DNA from: a virus
DNA length: 21,401 nucleotides
IMG/VR virus record: IMGVR_UViG_3300030390_001776
Coordinates: 1-21,401 of that record
Direction: 5' to 3' (one strand)
Shown piece after piece: positions 797 to 9,628 of the stretch (within the stretch, counting starts at the first letter, position 1; the number at the start of each line of letters is the position of its first letter). Below the pieces are notes generated by a model. That model made no database searches. It had not been told where the DNA came from and saw only the letters and a list, made by a program, of their open reading frames with translations. The position numbers and the translations under genes are program-made.

Positions 797-1018
797 TTAG
801 GACAAATAAATTTTATCGATGGCGTCAACATCTTTCCCTGTTCTCTCTTTGTGAACCGCTGCGCCTATGCTTAATATGCGGCGTCCTGTGGGCTTTGGTA
901 TGCCATACCAATCTATAAACCCTTGTAAGGTCATAAAATTCTGTTGAGACTCAAGATATAGCTTTTGATATCTGTCTTTTAATTTCTCTGATATTGTTAA
1001 AATCTTTCTTTTATTCAT
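797..1018 (-). CDS. Hypothetical protein, 73 aa
   Basis: The ATG at 1018 is chosen over an in-frame TTG at 1024 because AAGG is properly spaced only from the ATG. The start overlaps the end of the methyltransferase gene by 8 bp, indicating coupled translation. The product is basic and helical; the segment LQGFIDWYGIPKPTGRRIL (about residues 30-48) has the look of a short DNA-binding helix pair, but there is no firm family match. Its link to the methyltransferase could mean a modification-related role; that is inference only. Confidence 0.6.
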   Translation of the reverse strand: MNKRKILTISEKLKDRYQKLYLESQQNFMTLQGFIDWYGIPKPTGRRILSIGAAVHKERTGKDVDAIDKIYLS

Positions 1019-1814
1019 TGTCAAACCTTTTTGCTAATAACTCCCAAGCCAATGCCGCTGTTTGTGGGACTACTCCGTTTCCCAATAATCGCAATCTGTC
1101 CACCCTGCTGGAATACCCATCAGATACTCGACCCACTCTGGGTTTAACTCTGCTGGGTTCCCATGACTGTTGTGGTTCATTGGGTCTTGCTGGCCACCTG
1201 TATGCAGATTTTGCATAATGTTGGGCAGTGTGTCTGATGGGTTCCCTTTGCGCTTCTGGGCCTCTAAGCCCCTCGGGCCTTTGTAGTCTCTCGCTGTTGG
1301 TGTTGGCCATGATGAACACTCGCTTTCTTCGGTGGGGTGCGCCAACTTCTTCCGCGCTAAATAATCCGTACGCTGTTCTAAAATCATCTTCTTCCATGTC
1401 GCTGATGACTGTAGACAATCCAAGCGATATGTGCCCTTCGACATTCTCGAAAAAAGTTCGTTCTGGTCTGATGGTTCGAATGTGTTGTCTGATGTAGGGC
1501 CACAAGTGTCTGGGATCATCTGCCCCTTGTCGTTTCCCTGCTGCTGAAAATGGTTGGCATGGATATCCGCCAGTGATGATTGTAGTTTTGTCTCGAAAGA
1601 GGTGTGCTGGGAAGGTTTTAAGATCCGTCCAAATAGGGGCGGGATGAAGTTTACCCGCTTCCATCTTTGCAACCAAATTCGCAATAGCGAAGGCTTCGAT
1701 TTCCACATAAGCGACGACTCTATGCTTGACTCCAGCAAGGTCAAGTCCTCTTTCGATTCCACCATATCCTGTGCAAAAGCTGATGAGTGTTGGTAATTCT
1801 TTGGAAGTATCCAC
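1011..1814 (-). CDS. C5-cytosine DNA methyltransferase (Dcm type)
   Basis: This enzyme transfers a methyl group from S-adenosylmethionine to C5 of cytosine in DNA; in phages it usually protects the genome from host restriction. Conserved motifs appear in order: motif I FCTGYGGIERGLD (13-25), the catalytic PCQPFS (C86), ENVEG (123-127), HRRKR (161-165), and the C-terminal RVDRLRLLGNGVVPQ (237-251). At 267 residues it is short for the family, and the target-recognition segment between HRRKR and RVDRL is only about 70 residues. Translation must begin at GTG 1814, with AGGA about 10 bases upstream; a competing ATG sits 2 bases earlier in another frame. The gene lies downstream of the HNH gene with a 62-bp gap holding a possible weak promoter (a TATACT -10). 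No cognate restriction enzyme is seen, so it looks orphan. Confidence 0.92.
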   Translation of the reverse strand: MDTSKELPTLISFCTGYGGIERGLDLAGVKHRVVAYVEIEAFAIANLVAKMEAGKLHPAPIWTDLKTFPAHLFRDKTTIITGGYPCQPFSAAGKRQGADDPRHLWPYIRQHIRTIRPERTFFENVEGHISLGLSTVISDMEEDDFRTAYGLFSAEEVGAPHRRKRVFIMANTNSERLQRPEGLRGPEAQREPIRHTAQHYAKSAYRWPARPNEPQQSWEPSRVKPRVGRVSDGYSSRVDRLRLLGNGVVPQTAALAWELLAKRFDNE

Positions 1815-1816
1815 AT
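1070..1816 (-). CDS. Second reading frame within the methyltransferase gene, with its own conserved-looking motifs
   Basis: A 248-residue open frame starts at ATG 1816, two bases before the methyltransferase GTG, and shares the same AGGA with better spacing (8 bases). It stays open almost to the end of the methyltransferase. Its last third (DNA about 1309-1070) reads WPTPTARDYKG, then LNPEWVEYLMGIPAGWTD, ending WETE. From memory these strings are recurrent in phage proteins annotated near or as cytosine methylases. The first two thirds may be a mere shadow of the conserved catalytic domain. Whether it is translated is unknown. It could instead be a fossil of a frame-shifted methylase C-terminus, or overprinting. 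Confidence 0.4.
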   Translation of the reverse strand: MWILPKNYQHSSAFAQDMVESKEDLTLLESSIESSLMWKSKPSLLRIWLQRWKRVNFIPPLFGRILKPSQHTSFETKLQSSLADIHANHFQQQGNDKGQMIPDTCGPTSDNTFEPSDQNELFSRMSKGTYRLDCLQSSATWKKMILEQRTDYLARKKLAHPTEESECSSWPTPTARDYKGPRGLEAQKRKGNPSDTLPNIMQNLHTGGQQDPMNHNSHGNPAELNPEWVEYLMGIPAGWTDCDYWETE

Positions 1817-1876
1817 TTTTGATTTCCTAGTTGATTTGGGCAAAGTATAAACCAACTAAAAAAGAAATCTATATCT

Positions 1877-2245: not shown

Positions 2246-5065
2246 TTACATATAACCGCGTTTTACTAAGCGTTTAGAGGTTGTAAGCCCAAGGTTTTTG
2301 GCTGTCATTTCAATAGTGACTTCATAAATATTGCCAACTTCAAAATCAAGGGTTCTGTTTTCAGCTCCAGTGTTGCCGTTTAGATAACTGTAGTTGTAAA
2401 CTGAAGAGACGTTGACCCATGGCTTCAAGTCTGTGCCATTGACAACAATGTCATTTAAGTCAGCTCTTTGTAAGTTTTTAAAAGTCATCTTTGTAACTTC
2501 AGGCTGCTTGCCTGCCAATTCAGTAAGTCTGGCAGAATCTGCGCCATCTTTTGCAAAGATTACAAAAATGGTTCTTGATGCTTCTGCAAAACTTAAACCT
2601 ATGGCTGCTGCATCAGCATTCATAACATTTAAAACACCGAATTGAAATTGTATTTCATCATTGTCATTTCGATACTCAAAAGAAGTAGGCCTTGAACTGA
2701 CTTCTGGTAAATTAACATAGGGAACACCTGCGGCATATACTGCATCCCCGTAATCATTAGCCGGGTCTATATACTCTTGTTGTAATAACCCCGTAGTATC
2801 ATTAACGGGCGTCACAACTTGCGTTTCTTCATTTACGACAGCCGCATTATAAAAAGCCCTAATTCCAAAACGCCCATTATTTGAAGCATTTGTACCTTCT
2901 ATTTTTACAAAGGTAAAAAGAGCATTGATACCCGCGTCAGCCCTGCAAGCTGCCAGTAAGCCATCCGTTATATCTTCTAAGCTGTCTGTGGCTAAACCTT
3001 GGTAGCTGATTGTTTTACTACCCCAAGGAGTCACCCCGAAAAAGTCATCTGTGTCAAAATCAATTGAATAAAGAAGATCATTTCTTACAGTCAATCTAGC
3101 ATCTGATTGTCCCGAAAGAGAACCCGTCATTGTTAATATATCACCGTGGGCATGACCTGAACCTCTGTTGAGGGTTGGACGACTTGAGTTTGCGCTTTGT
3201 ATGTAACCTGCAATAGTACCAGTTGCAGCAATCACAGTTCCGACCCTGAACAATGTTCCCGAACCAGTACCAGTGGTTGCTGTTTGCGCTATATTATCCG
3301 CAATAGAATAATTTGTTCCTGCATTTGTTAAATCATAACCATGGTCAATAAAAAAGTCTTTTGATTGGTTTTGATTGTTTGGTTGACCTGCATTTATCGG
3401 AAATAGGCTAGTCCCCGACACGCTGCCAACACTCCCATTGGTTAAAAAGAAAGGGCTTGAAACCGCTGTCTTCCCGCTAATTATTGCCGTCAATTTTTGT
3501 TTCATTTTTCTATCACCTTCAATGATGTCATTTGCTTGTGTTTTGTAGGGCTGTGCTAATCCATCGCCCCAAAGTTCATGTTCGTCTGTCCAGTCGTCTT
3601 GAGTGCGCATTGCTGCCAGAGCATAGCTATTGCCCCTCAATAAGCTAAAAATGAATCTTTCAGCTTTCATGATTGCGCTTGTTGCTAAAGGTTCAACATA
3701 ACTGCAAAGGGCAGCAGATGCGCCGTGTCGCAAAGCCATTGGCGATATTTTGTGACCATGACTTGTAAGCTCAACAATACAACCACCATCTTTAACTTTC
3801 ATTGTCTGGCTGTTTGGATTTGCTGAGTTGTAAAAATCTAAATTGTTGTTCGAATTAAAGTTCCCAAAAAGGCTAAAGTGAATGAAGCATTCAAGTGGGA
3901 AAGTGGCGTTGTTGTATGCGTCAAAGCGCATCCCCTTATGACCGGGTGAATTTTGGGTGTCTGTATAGTATCGCAGAACATTTGTATTGACTAAATCAGG
4001 TTCAGTATCAAGAACTGGTGTATTAGTTGCAACAAAGCGCGGGTCTGTTTGATCAGATATCGGGTCAAGTTTTTTGAAGTGTGCAAGGCTTGAATCATCA
4101 ACCGCTGGTATCGTTGCTAAAGTGTTGCTGTGGGTAGTTCTAAAGCCATAGTTGTAATTTGTATAACCTATTGAATCAAGAACCTTCCCAAGTGCAACAC
4201 CTTTTCCGCAGTGACCCTCTGATGTCCTATCGCGCAAAGTCATTGATATTCTTGACTGTGCCTTATGATCATCAAAGCTTACAGCGCCAGCCGCTTTGCC
4301 CCGGTTGACCATGTTTGTAATTTCTTCAGGTGTTGGTGATGGCATTTGGCCAGATGCCTTCCAACCAATGCGCCAGCTTGGAATTTTTAAGATTGCGGCC
4401 TCATTGTGTGGGTTTCTTGGTTTAATACCTGACAAGCCCTTTACAGCGTTGAATTCAGTTGACCAAAGATTCGGAGGTGAAAGGCCAGCGTTCCTGAAGT
4501 CCGAACTAAGTATTCCATCAATGTTGAAATCATAAGCATTGACTGGCAAATCATCCCTCAAAAGGCCGCCATTTTGTGTGTAAAATGCTATCTCTGTATT
4601 ATCTAATGTTTTGACGGTTAAATTTTTTATTTCTTGGTCTAAAAATTTGGTGCTTAATAAAGTGGCTAAGGGTATATTTTCAATCTGTAATATTTTCTTT
4701 ATTGAAACAGAAGAAGCCAATAATGTACTAAATGCCGTTAAACTATCATTCCCAGAATTTATAAACTCCTGAGTAAGCGGGCAATTAGGGGAACAACAAA
4801 TAGCTTGAATCTGGTGCTTTTCAATGTAGTCAGCCAAATCACTAAGCCAAGCACCCCAAAGAAGTTCCCGATCTGTGTTTTCTGCAATTGATAAATCAAG
4901 GCCGTATTTGTGGGCTGAGTTCAAACCATGCGCTGCAATGTAAGCATCAATAAGCGCTTCTTCTGATGCGCCTAAATTTGTATCCCAAAAGATACAAACT
5001 TTTTTCTTATCAATTTGGTGACGGTATGCCTGTTCCAGACCGTTGATGATGTCATATGTTGACAT
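2246..5065 (-). CDS. 939-aa late protein with TIGR03790-like N-terminal half; probable virion/tail-associated protein
   Basis: Residues about 20-507 resemble bacterial TIGR03790 proteins: an N-terminal VCIFWDTN...EALIDAYIAAHGL segment, IQAICCSPNCPL (87-97), a WRIGW...PTPEEI...GKAAGAVSFDD stretch (231-266), and a strong C-terminal signature HGASAALCSYVEPL (447-460), LLRGNSYALAAM and WGDGLAQPY (499-507). Family knowledge links such sequences to the caspase/gingipain-like fold; here SHG (435-437) and C454 are a possible His/Cys pair, but catalysis is not established. The rest (510-939) is rich in Gly, Asn, Ser, Thr and Asp and looks like beta-structured phage fibre material. The gene follows the lysis cassette (previous stop 5067, TAGTATG junction) and precedes the HNH gene. 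No signal peptide is visible. A host-surface-binding or degrading structural protein is my best guess. Confidence 0.7.
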   Translation of the reverse strand: MSTYDIINGLEQAYRHQIDKKKVCIFWDTNLGASEEALIDAYIAAHGLNSAHKYGLDLSIAENTDRELLWGAWLSDLADYIEKHQIQAICCSPNCPLTQEFINSGNDSLTAFSTLLASSVSIKKILQIENIPLATLLSTKFLDQEIKNLTVKTLDNTEIAFYTQNGGLLRDDLPVNAYDFNIDGILSSDFRNAGLSPPNLWSTEFNAVKGLSGIKPRNPHNEAAILKIPSWRIGWKASGQMPSPTPEEITNMVNRGKAAGAVSFDDHKAQSRISMTLRDRTSEGHCGKGVALGKVLDSIGYTNYNYGFRTTHSNTLATIPAVDDSSLAHFKKLDPISDQTDPRFVATNTPVLDTEPDLVNTNVLRYYTDTQNSPGHKGMRFDAYNNATFPLECFIHFSLFGNFNSNNNLDFYNSANPNSQTMKVKDGGCIVELTSHGHKISPMALRHGASAALCSYVEPLATSAIMKAERFIFSLLRGNSYALAAMRTQDDWTDEHELWGDGLAQPYKTQANDIIEGDRKMKQKLTAIISGKTAVSSPFFLTNGSVGSVSGTSLFPINAGQPNNQNQSKDFFIDHGYDLTNAGTNYSIADNIAQTATTGTGSGTLFRVGTVIAATGTIAGYIQSANSSRPTLNRGSGHAHGDILTMTGSLSGQSDARLTVRNDLLYSIDFDTDDFFGVTPWGSKTISYQGLATDSLEDITDGLLAACRADAGINALFTFVKIEGTNASNNGRFGIRAFYNAAVVNEETQVVTPVNDTTGLLQQEYIDPANDYGDAVYAAGVPYVNLPEVSSRPTSFEYRNDNDEIQFQFGVLNVMNADAAAIGLSFAEASRTIFVIFAKDGADSARLTELAGKQPEVTKMTFKNLQRADLNDIVVNGTDLKPWVNVSSVYNYSYLNGNTGAENRTLDFEVGNIYEVTIEMTAKNLGLTTSKRLVKRGYM

Positions 5066-9051: not shown

Positions 9052-9318
9052 ATGGCTAAATATCCAGATATCACTATCAAAGTTATAAAAGGCAATGAAG
9101 AAATCAATGACCGAATAAGGGTTTGGACACATGGCTTTTTATCTGAAACAAGGGTTGTAGATCCTGACTTAAGTTTAGAACCTCAAGTTCTCGAGCTTGC
9201 GCAAAGTTTCGCAAAAAACACAGGGCTAAAACCGCCATTGAAAATGTCTATGCAAATAGACGGTGATTATAGCTCGAAAAAACCAGTGGTTGATAATGAC
9301 GGTGAAGAAGATGAATGA
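9052..9318 (+). CDS. Hypothetical protein, 88 aa
   Basis: Begins after an AT-rich 62-bp gap that contains a possible weak promoter (TTTATT 9004-9009, TATATA near 9026-9033) and a clear AGAGGA Shine-Dalgarno. The product starts with a beta-like MAKYPDITIKVIKGNEE, has a central acidic/aliphatic helix (LEPQVLELAQSFAKNTG) and ends in the acidic tail DNDGEEDE. No family recognised. Its end overlaps the DUF3310 gene by 8 bp. The position directly after the helicase suggests a DNA-metabolism accessory role. Confidence 0.7.
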   Translation: MAKYPDITIKVIKGNEEINDRIRVWTHGFLSETRVVDPDLSLEPQVLELAQSFAKNTGLKPPLKMSMQIDGDYSSKKPVVDNDGEEDE

Positions 9319-9628
9319 AAAAATTAGAGGATCTATACCAACCCCAGTGCTTGAAGAAATTGAATCCCATTTATCCTGTCATTTTGAAAAAAGCGCAACT
9401 GATCCTGTCAACCACCCAAGTCATTACACTGCTGGCAACATTGAAACGATTGATTATTTGGTTGATGTTCTTGGTGTGCAAGGTGCTATTCATTATTGTC
9501 ATGGTAACATTATTAAATATACTGGTAGCCGCTTACATAATAAAAACAATCCTATACAAGACGCACAAAAAGCTGTCTGGTATACCAAGAAAATGATCGA
9601 ATTGATGAAGGAACAAGAAAATGGCTAA
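9311..9628 (+). CDS. DUF3310 protein (SaV-like, putative nucleotide-kinase-like), 105 aa
   Basis: The start is set at ATG 9311 (MNEKIRGS), overlapping the previous gene, because an earlier in-frame ATG would lie deep in that gene. Residues 31-39 read DPVNHPSHY and are followed by IETIDYL, GNIIKY (65-70), R...K..P..DAQKAVWY and a C-terminal helix: the DUF3310 signature. Family members are widespread in phages and sometimes annotated as nucleotide kinases, though activity is not well shown. The first 25 residues are not part of the family core. The next gene starts within its last codons (ATGGCTAA). Confidence 0.85.
   Translation: MNEKIRGSIPTPVLEEIESHLSCHFEKSATDPVNHPSHYTAGNIETIDYLVDVLGVQGAIHYCHGNIIKYTGSRLHNKNNPIQDAQKAVWYTKKMIELMKEQENG

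Follow-up and report, generated by a model that had tools for sequence, protein, structure and literature searches.

The window (by which we mean the whole stretch of DNA analysed) is a virus record of 21,401 bases, in which one gene of the minus strand is open in two overlapping frames. The first of these, frame A (1011–1814, minus strand; GTG start, 267 amino acids), encodes a C5-cytosine methyltransferase that we refer to as ‘alpha’; it matches PF00145 across residues 10–188 (E 5e-29) and phrog_363 (E 9e-56). Motifs I–VIII and X are present in this frame, including a motif I that reads CTGYGG, the catalytic cysteine (Cys86) in PCQPFS, or motif IV (1545–1562; invariant in an alignment of A relatives), and LLGNGVVP at the start of motif X (1065–1088; G245, N246 and P250 invariant in the same alignment), which lies mostly beyond the end of the second frame. 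No motif IX was found in frame A's own reading frame, and A thus fails the expectation for a C5-methyltransferase (PF00145) that recognition domain and motif IX share one chain.

An AlphaFold2 (AF2) model of A alone shows a confidently predicted C5-methyltransferase core and motif X helix, with M.HhaI as its top structural match (Z 18.9, rmsd 4.2, 213 residues aligned; C5-methyltransferase fold). Residues 176–236 (1107–1289, minus strand) take the position expected of the recognition domain and motif IX, with the motif X helix coming next; this stretch is variable and predicted to be disordered, its AF2 pLDDT being mostly below 50 and identity among relatives falling to 0.13–0.40 over residues 166–225.

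The second frame, frame B, lies in the +1 register relative to A. It is open between 1855 and 1070, runs to 248 amino acids from an ATG at 1816 (1070–1816, minus strand; putative ‘beta’ subunit) and overlaps A from the start of that gene to just short of motif X. B matches phrog_1008, a family labelled DNA methyltransferase, with an E-value of 1e-19; searches of Pfam, NCBIfam and the PDB gave no match, the sole returns from a PDB profile search being insignificant ones to a mitochondrial ribosomal protein. Working from its N-terminus, we distinguish an extension of 75 residues (1592–1816), under constraint in the clade whose two starts nearly coincide; a module beginning W-P-T-P (1148–1309; WPTPTARDYKG at 1309–1277), inferred to be a target-recognition unit from its modularity across relatives, and lying, together with what follows, directly over the disordered stretch of A; and a motif IX-like end, LNPEWVEYLMGIPAGWTD (1094–1147), in which E230, M233 and G234 are invariant in the B alignment and after which the protein closes with CDYWETE. 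Since the AF2 model of B alone is poor (pLDDT 56, pTM 0.21, with 46 relatives in the alignment), the fold of B remains unproven. In phages that carry motif IX in frame with the catalytic core it precedes motif X and is collinear with M.HhaI residues 282–308, in a profile comparison that is not significant alone. A further ATG is found in B at 1517–1519 (residue 100, MIPDTCGPTS), behind an AAGGGG inside A; as the homology of B in shorter relatives begins near this codon, a short form of beta could also be made.

The two frames begin within the sequence ATGTG (1814–1816, minus strand), with the ATG of B at 1816 and the GTG of A at 1814; a single Shine-Dalgarno-like AGGA (1825–1828) stands 8 nt before the former and 10 nt before the latter. 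A preliminary description of this locus, made from sequence alone, had given these coordinates for both frames along with the overlapping starts, two bases apart and sharing one AGGA, and all of this held. It had also paired SDGYSSRVDRL of A (1124–1092) with YLMGIPAGWTDC of B, read from the same bases, as strings that both resemble family consensus. Both are indeed conserved across relatives, but their treatment as interchangeable forms of one segment failed: they belong to two different proteins, the first being the lead-in to motif X in A and the second motif IX in B. What that description had missed is the probable reason for the overlap: B holds motif IX, which is absent from A, and the pair thus resemble subunits of a single enzyme.

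The openness of frame B is not a property of genes in this window generally. Whilst A has a +1 frame that stays open over 247 codons, none of nine other window genes (217–940 codons) has a +1 or +2 frame open for more than 65. Shuffling the synonymous codons of A, with its protein and codon usage kept, leads us to expect a mean of 5.6 B stops in the window gene, against none observed, and not one of 300 shuffles reached zero. Extending this to the window and its relatives (103 loci, the 80 main relatives having been picked on A and not on B), 98 have no B stop over A codons 1 to n-45, where about 6.6 per gene are expected from shuffles of the same kind; the +2 frame of the same genes, taken as a control, has 14.6 stops against an expected 14.5. 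The count across 103 loci takes in near-identical loci and so overstates their independence, for which the synonymous-site and A-landmark tests use reduced sets.

Counting stops within regions set by the openness of B is circular, and we therefore recounted them between landmarks of A with near-copies removed. The viral contigs have 0 B stops against 165.8 expected and the bacterial and archaeal genomes 1 against 121.3. Cultured phages have 5 against 26.7, all five coming from three phages with motif IX in A; in these, B stops occur at the expected rate. A sample chosen blind to B, comprising 14 bacterial genes from three groups picked on A alone, has 0 B stops against 33.5 expected; motif IX is found in B in 13 of the 14 and in A in none, the fourteenth having its A broken by a stop.

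A second line of evidence comes from the synonymous sites of A. The contigs of two relatives (L006 and L022) also carry the window's DnaB helicase, providing a control within the same genomes. Between the window and the L006 phage, DnaB is 82% identical with 53% of 4-fold sites changed and the methyltransferase 70% identical with 26% changed; between the L006 and L022 phages, the corresponding values are 98.9% and 23% for DnaB and 73.9% and 10% for the methyltransferase. Synonymous sites of A thus change about half as much as those of the helicase in the same phages. A profile of 4-fold divergence along A (54 nonredundant genes, 1,415 pairs) gives 0.07–0.51 for well-aligned positions under an open B, 0.57 for codons 196–210, where the alignment is poor, and 0.57–0.67 past the B stop, the sites being free from motif X on.

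Across the first 75 codons, which carry the B extension, divergence in the window clade is 0.10–0.40. In relatives where B opens only near A codon 61, divergence is 0.64–0.73 before B opens, 0.16–0.62 inside B (the value of 0.62 coming from 101 sites in a variable stretch) and 0.69 after it. These late-opening genes provide a control inside one gene: constraint on A starts where B opens and ends where B ends. As they are free over the first codons, the low divergence seen there in the window clade reflects the presence of the B extension and is not a property of the methyltransferase.

The arrangement is widespread in phages, bacteria and archaea, and for the most part one of its two frames goes without annotation. 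A profile of the second half of B matched 80 viral and 80 genome loci, the latter from Bacillota, Actinomycetota, Pseudomonadota, Bacteroidota, Nitrospirota, Thermoplasmatota and further groups; B overlaps an A gene in every one of these 80 bacterial and archaeal loci, always in the +1 frame. We looked for a free-standing B gene: a regular-expression pass found no upstream PCQ in several bacterial loci, but the idea was rejected once the profile search had put an overlapping A at 80 of 80. Cultured phages with the arrangement include Escherichia phages K1ind2 and fKuEco01, Klebsiella phage Seifer, Paenibacillus phages Lily, Xenia and Arcticfreeze, Mycobacterium phages Rhynn and ShroomBoi, and Stenotrophomonas phages S72, C72C1 and C75C1. 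Both frames are annotated in some of them (as ‘g62 internal gene’ in Lily and as two methyltransferase ORFs in K1ind2) and one only in others. In most bacterial loci B ends at a fixed 50 nt before the LGNAVVP of A.

Across relatives, B carries between one and seven modules starting W-P-T-P (W.TP), with one in the window, and module types recur at differing positions and in differing combinations. One type (QARDHRQG.../QARDYRSG...) is common to two viral contigs (L059 and L145) and to Paenibacillus and Brevibacillus loci (L216 and L223); such sharing between viral contigs and Bacillota genomes, which holds for some of the module types, suggests that recognition cassettes are swapped across hosts.

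Three phages depart from this division of motifs: the mycobacteriophages Graduation and KyMonks1A and the Gordonia phage Trax carry motif IX in frame A, immediately ahead of motif X. We also observe that a PTPLARDSKG-like module is still found in frame B of Graduation (L003/L269) and KyMonks1A (L271), behind an ATG (MTDTCG...), as is an FPTPRSADA-like module in Trax (L272). It is likely that the split point between the frames has shifted in these phages, leaving a shortened B. Searched against viral contigs, the one-frame sequence of Graduation matched only itself, and no deep alignment of one-frame members could thus be made. A further variant occurs in Paenibacillus macquariensis (L257, ~2700–3270), where PCQPFS and motif IX lie in one ORF and motif X in a second frame; this could be a natural A–B fusion or a frameshifted copy.

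Start signals for B are kept in more than one form. Among 54 nonredundant relatives, the B and A starts are an ATG two bases before a GTG in 52, GTG/GTG in one and separate ATGs in one, with an AGG-like element at the shared Shine-Dalgarno position in 45. In a tree of the A core, 38 of 42 extended-B loci (the window included) fall with one other locus into a group of 39 rows with a support of 96. Many bacterial loci instead open B near A codon 61, from an ATG behind a Shine-Dalgarno-like sequence within the A coding sequence (for example AAGGAGG followed by ATG). The mean Shine-Dalgarno match of these internal starts is 4.97, as against 3.82 ± 0.21 in synonymous shuffles and a maximum of 4.52 over 500 of them; strength at single internal starts is rarely significant alone, and it is the group mean only that reaches significance. 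A related form is seen in Pseudomonas and Acinetobacter loci, where B opens close to the A start and the region is again constrained. A separate B start is thus kept as ATGTG, as ATGAATG and in internal forms of variable spacing, and in many loci a B-frame stop stands just before the B ATG.

Taken as computational results, dual coding of this DNA, the split of motifs between the frames, the retention of starts for both and the modularity of B are shown. We consider it likely that A and B together form a two-polypeptide C5-cytosine methyltransferase of the M.EcoHK31I kind, encoded by the same DNA in two frames; saying this, the translation of both proteins, the heterodimer and the need for both chains are inferred, and there are no protein data behind the two-subunit reading. 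In the mechanism we propose, ribosomes loading from one Shine-Dalgarno sequence would start either at the ATG of B or at the GTG of A two bases on, thereby making both subunits; alpha would bind S-adenosylmethionine and hold the catalytic cysteine and motif X, and beta would bring one or more target-recognition modules together with motif IX, so picking the site and completing the fold. The subunits would then join into one site-specific enzyme methylating phage DNA, which may in turn be protected from restriction. That the W-P-T-P modules are target-recognition units is an inference from their shuffling, which is as expected of such units; recognition of DNA by each of them is likewise inferred. 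The ability of natural or artificial splits of C5-methyltransferases to reassemble is established (PMC5944983).

The closest precedent is M.EcoHK31I, whose large polypeptide holds motifs I–VIII and X and whose small one holds motif IX only (PMC3404938). The small gene of that system is nested within the large one in another frame, and M.EaeI is a further two-polypeptide C5-methyltransferase of the same kind. The distribution of motifs between first and second frame is alike here, at the level of coding sequence and with the B polypeptide inferred; the bacterial loci in which B opens near A codon 61 resemble the M.EcoHK31I nesting most directly. In the window clade, by contrast, B reaches the A start at ATGTG, with constraint on the 75 residues at its N-terminus. 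A possible second difference concerns recognition: the predicted recognition domain of M.EcoHK31I is in its large subunit (PMC3404938), whereas the matching stretch of A is variable and predicted to be disordered and the module-like units, tandem in relatives, are in B. M.AquI is similar in being a natural split of one C5 enzyme into catalytic and recognition parts. Its small subunit, however, holds both motif IX and motif X (PMC3404938); here motif X belongs to A, B having already ended, and the overlap between the genes is nearly complete.

Multispecific methyltransferases of Bacillus phages, of the phi3T and SPbeta type, offer a parallel in their tandem, exchangeable recognition units. Those units share frame and chain with the catalytic core (PMC8936443), whereas here the inferred units are in the other frame. 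The methylase of mycobacteriophage ShiLan likewise has a second protein out-of-frame in a phage DNA methylase gene (PMC11855218), but there it is a homing insertion with an HNH endonuclease, whilst in the present case the second frame runs across the methyltransferase proper and rounds out its motif set. M.BatI, an orphan prophage C5-methyltransferase, is described as short, its motif I being CxGxxG, its catalytic cysteine Cys86 and its recognition region very short (PMC8936443); having CxGxxG and Cys86 in common with the window A, it is a possible characterised member of this group, a suggestion resting on these described features alone. A clone of M.BatI would carry any B frame unnoticed.

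As for phrog_1008, it matches the B proteins of K1ind2 (ORF28; 1e-64) and Lily (the internal gene; 6e-44) besides that of the window; its label hides the fact that the matched part is the second-frame product in the phages tested here, and it also covers the C-terminal part of methyltransferases written in a single frame, Graduation gp47 among them. A two-polypeptide C5-methyltransferase kind with motif IX set apart is known already from M.EcoHK31I; what is new is the very wide spread, the extended B starting within two bases of A, and the shuffled tandem modules in the second frame. A search of the open-access literature found no paper describing a wide spread of this two-frame arrangement.

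We have weighed three other accounts of the locus. The simplest is that B is a passive shadow, in which the conserved protein of A and codon bias alone keep the +1 frame open and no B product exists. In its favour, B homologues are found only overlapping A and the similarity among B sequences follows partly from that among A sequences. Against this, A-preserving shuffles give 6.6 B stops per gene where 98 of 103 loci have none, the synonymous sites of A are constrained only where B is open, B start codons and Shine-Dalgarno-like sequences are kept, and the cultured phages with motif IX in A accumulate B stops at the rate expected; a passive shadow is all but excluded, and our computations show that B is not one. 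The preliminary description had proposed that two overprinted products arise from a single start region, a view to be refuted if B homologues occurred only over A, if the synonymous sites of A were free to vary and if B stops were common in relatives. The first of these is indeed the case (80 of 80 bacterial or archaeal loci); the other two failed decisively, the sites being constrained and the stops all but absent, and overprinting is supported, with translation of B still inferred. Its alternative, that phage methylase C-termini are interchangeable by frameshift, has a grain of truth, in the presence of motif IX in A in Graduation, KyMonks1A and Trax.

Ribosomal frameshifting might make B from A, or A from B, with the functional enzyme including an A–B fusion. 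The two starts are close, such that early slippage would yield an almost identical B, and the P. macquariensis locus does have core and motif IX in one ORF. Opposing this are the separate B start kept in its ATGTG, ATGAATG and internal forms, the B-frame stop just before the B ATG in many loci, and the fact that an A–B fusion would be without motif X; slippery sites were not systematically searched, and we regard this account as very unlikely. Equally hard to sustain is the idea that B is a separate overprinted protein unrelated to methylation, serving for instance in anti-restriction or host shut-off. Its N-terminal extension has no known fold, and M.BatI, with the same motif I type and Cys86, has a toxicity that does not depend on the catalytic cysteine (PMC8936443). 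Yet the single motif missing from A, motif IX, is what B ends in, at its fixed distance from LGNAVVP in most bacterial loci; three phages have motif IX in A instead; and the modules shuffle like recognition domains.

Returning to the two-subunit enzyme, a bolder version of it invokes reciprocal overprinting. The core would be ancestral in A, and the recognition modules and motif IX ancestral in B, with the disordered linker of A and the N-terminal extension of B each arising de novo over the other frame; modules would be exchanged between phages and bacteria as cassettes obliged to remain open in both frames, and in one large clade a single ribosome-loading site would set the subunit ratio. 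The argument for the ancestral frames comes from motif homology without a rooted reconstruction, and on balance we lean slightly against this fuller version.

It is very rare for overlaps of 230–500 codons to be retained across phages, bacteria and archaea, and here the products look like halves of one enzyme, making the adaptive conflict inherent in overprinting testable via a simple methylation readout. Two-frame coding may account for those phage and prophage C5-methyltransferases that are ‘short’ and have no motif IX. As gene callers tend to retain a single frame, many beta subunits are probably missing or mislabelled in public genomes, and the exchange of recognition modules takes place in a frame that annotation leaves out; cloning alpha alone by its protein sequence, with altered codons, would destroy beta.

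Elsewhere in the window, two plus-strand ORFs at 9263–9628 and 9315–9596 overlap in different frames, the longer holding DPVNHPSHYTAGNIETIDYL...; the shorter of this pair may be no more than a shadow. Immediately upstream of the methyltransferase, on the same strand (1877–2242, minus), lies an ORF resembling a small HNH endonuclease (CQVCISRGILSPAKIVDHITPQHL...LQAICKPCHDIK).
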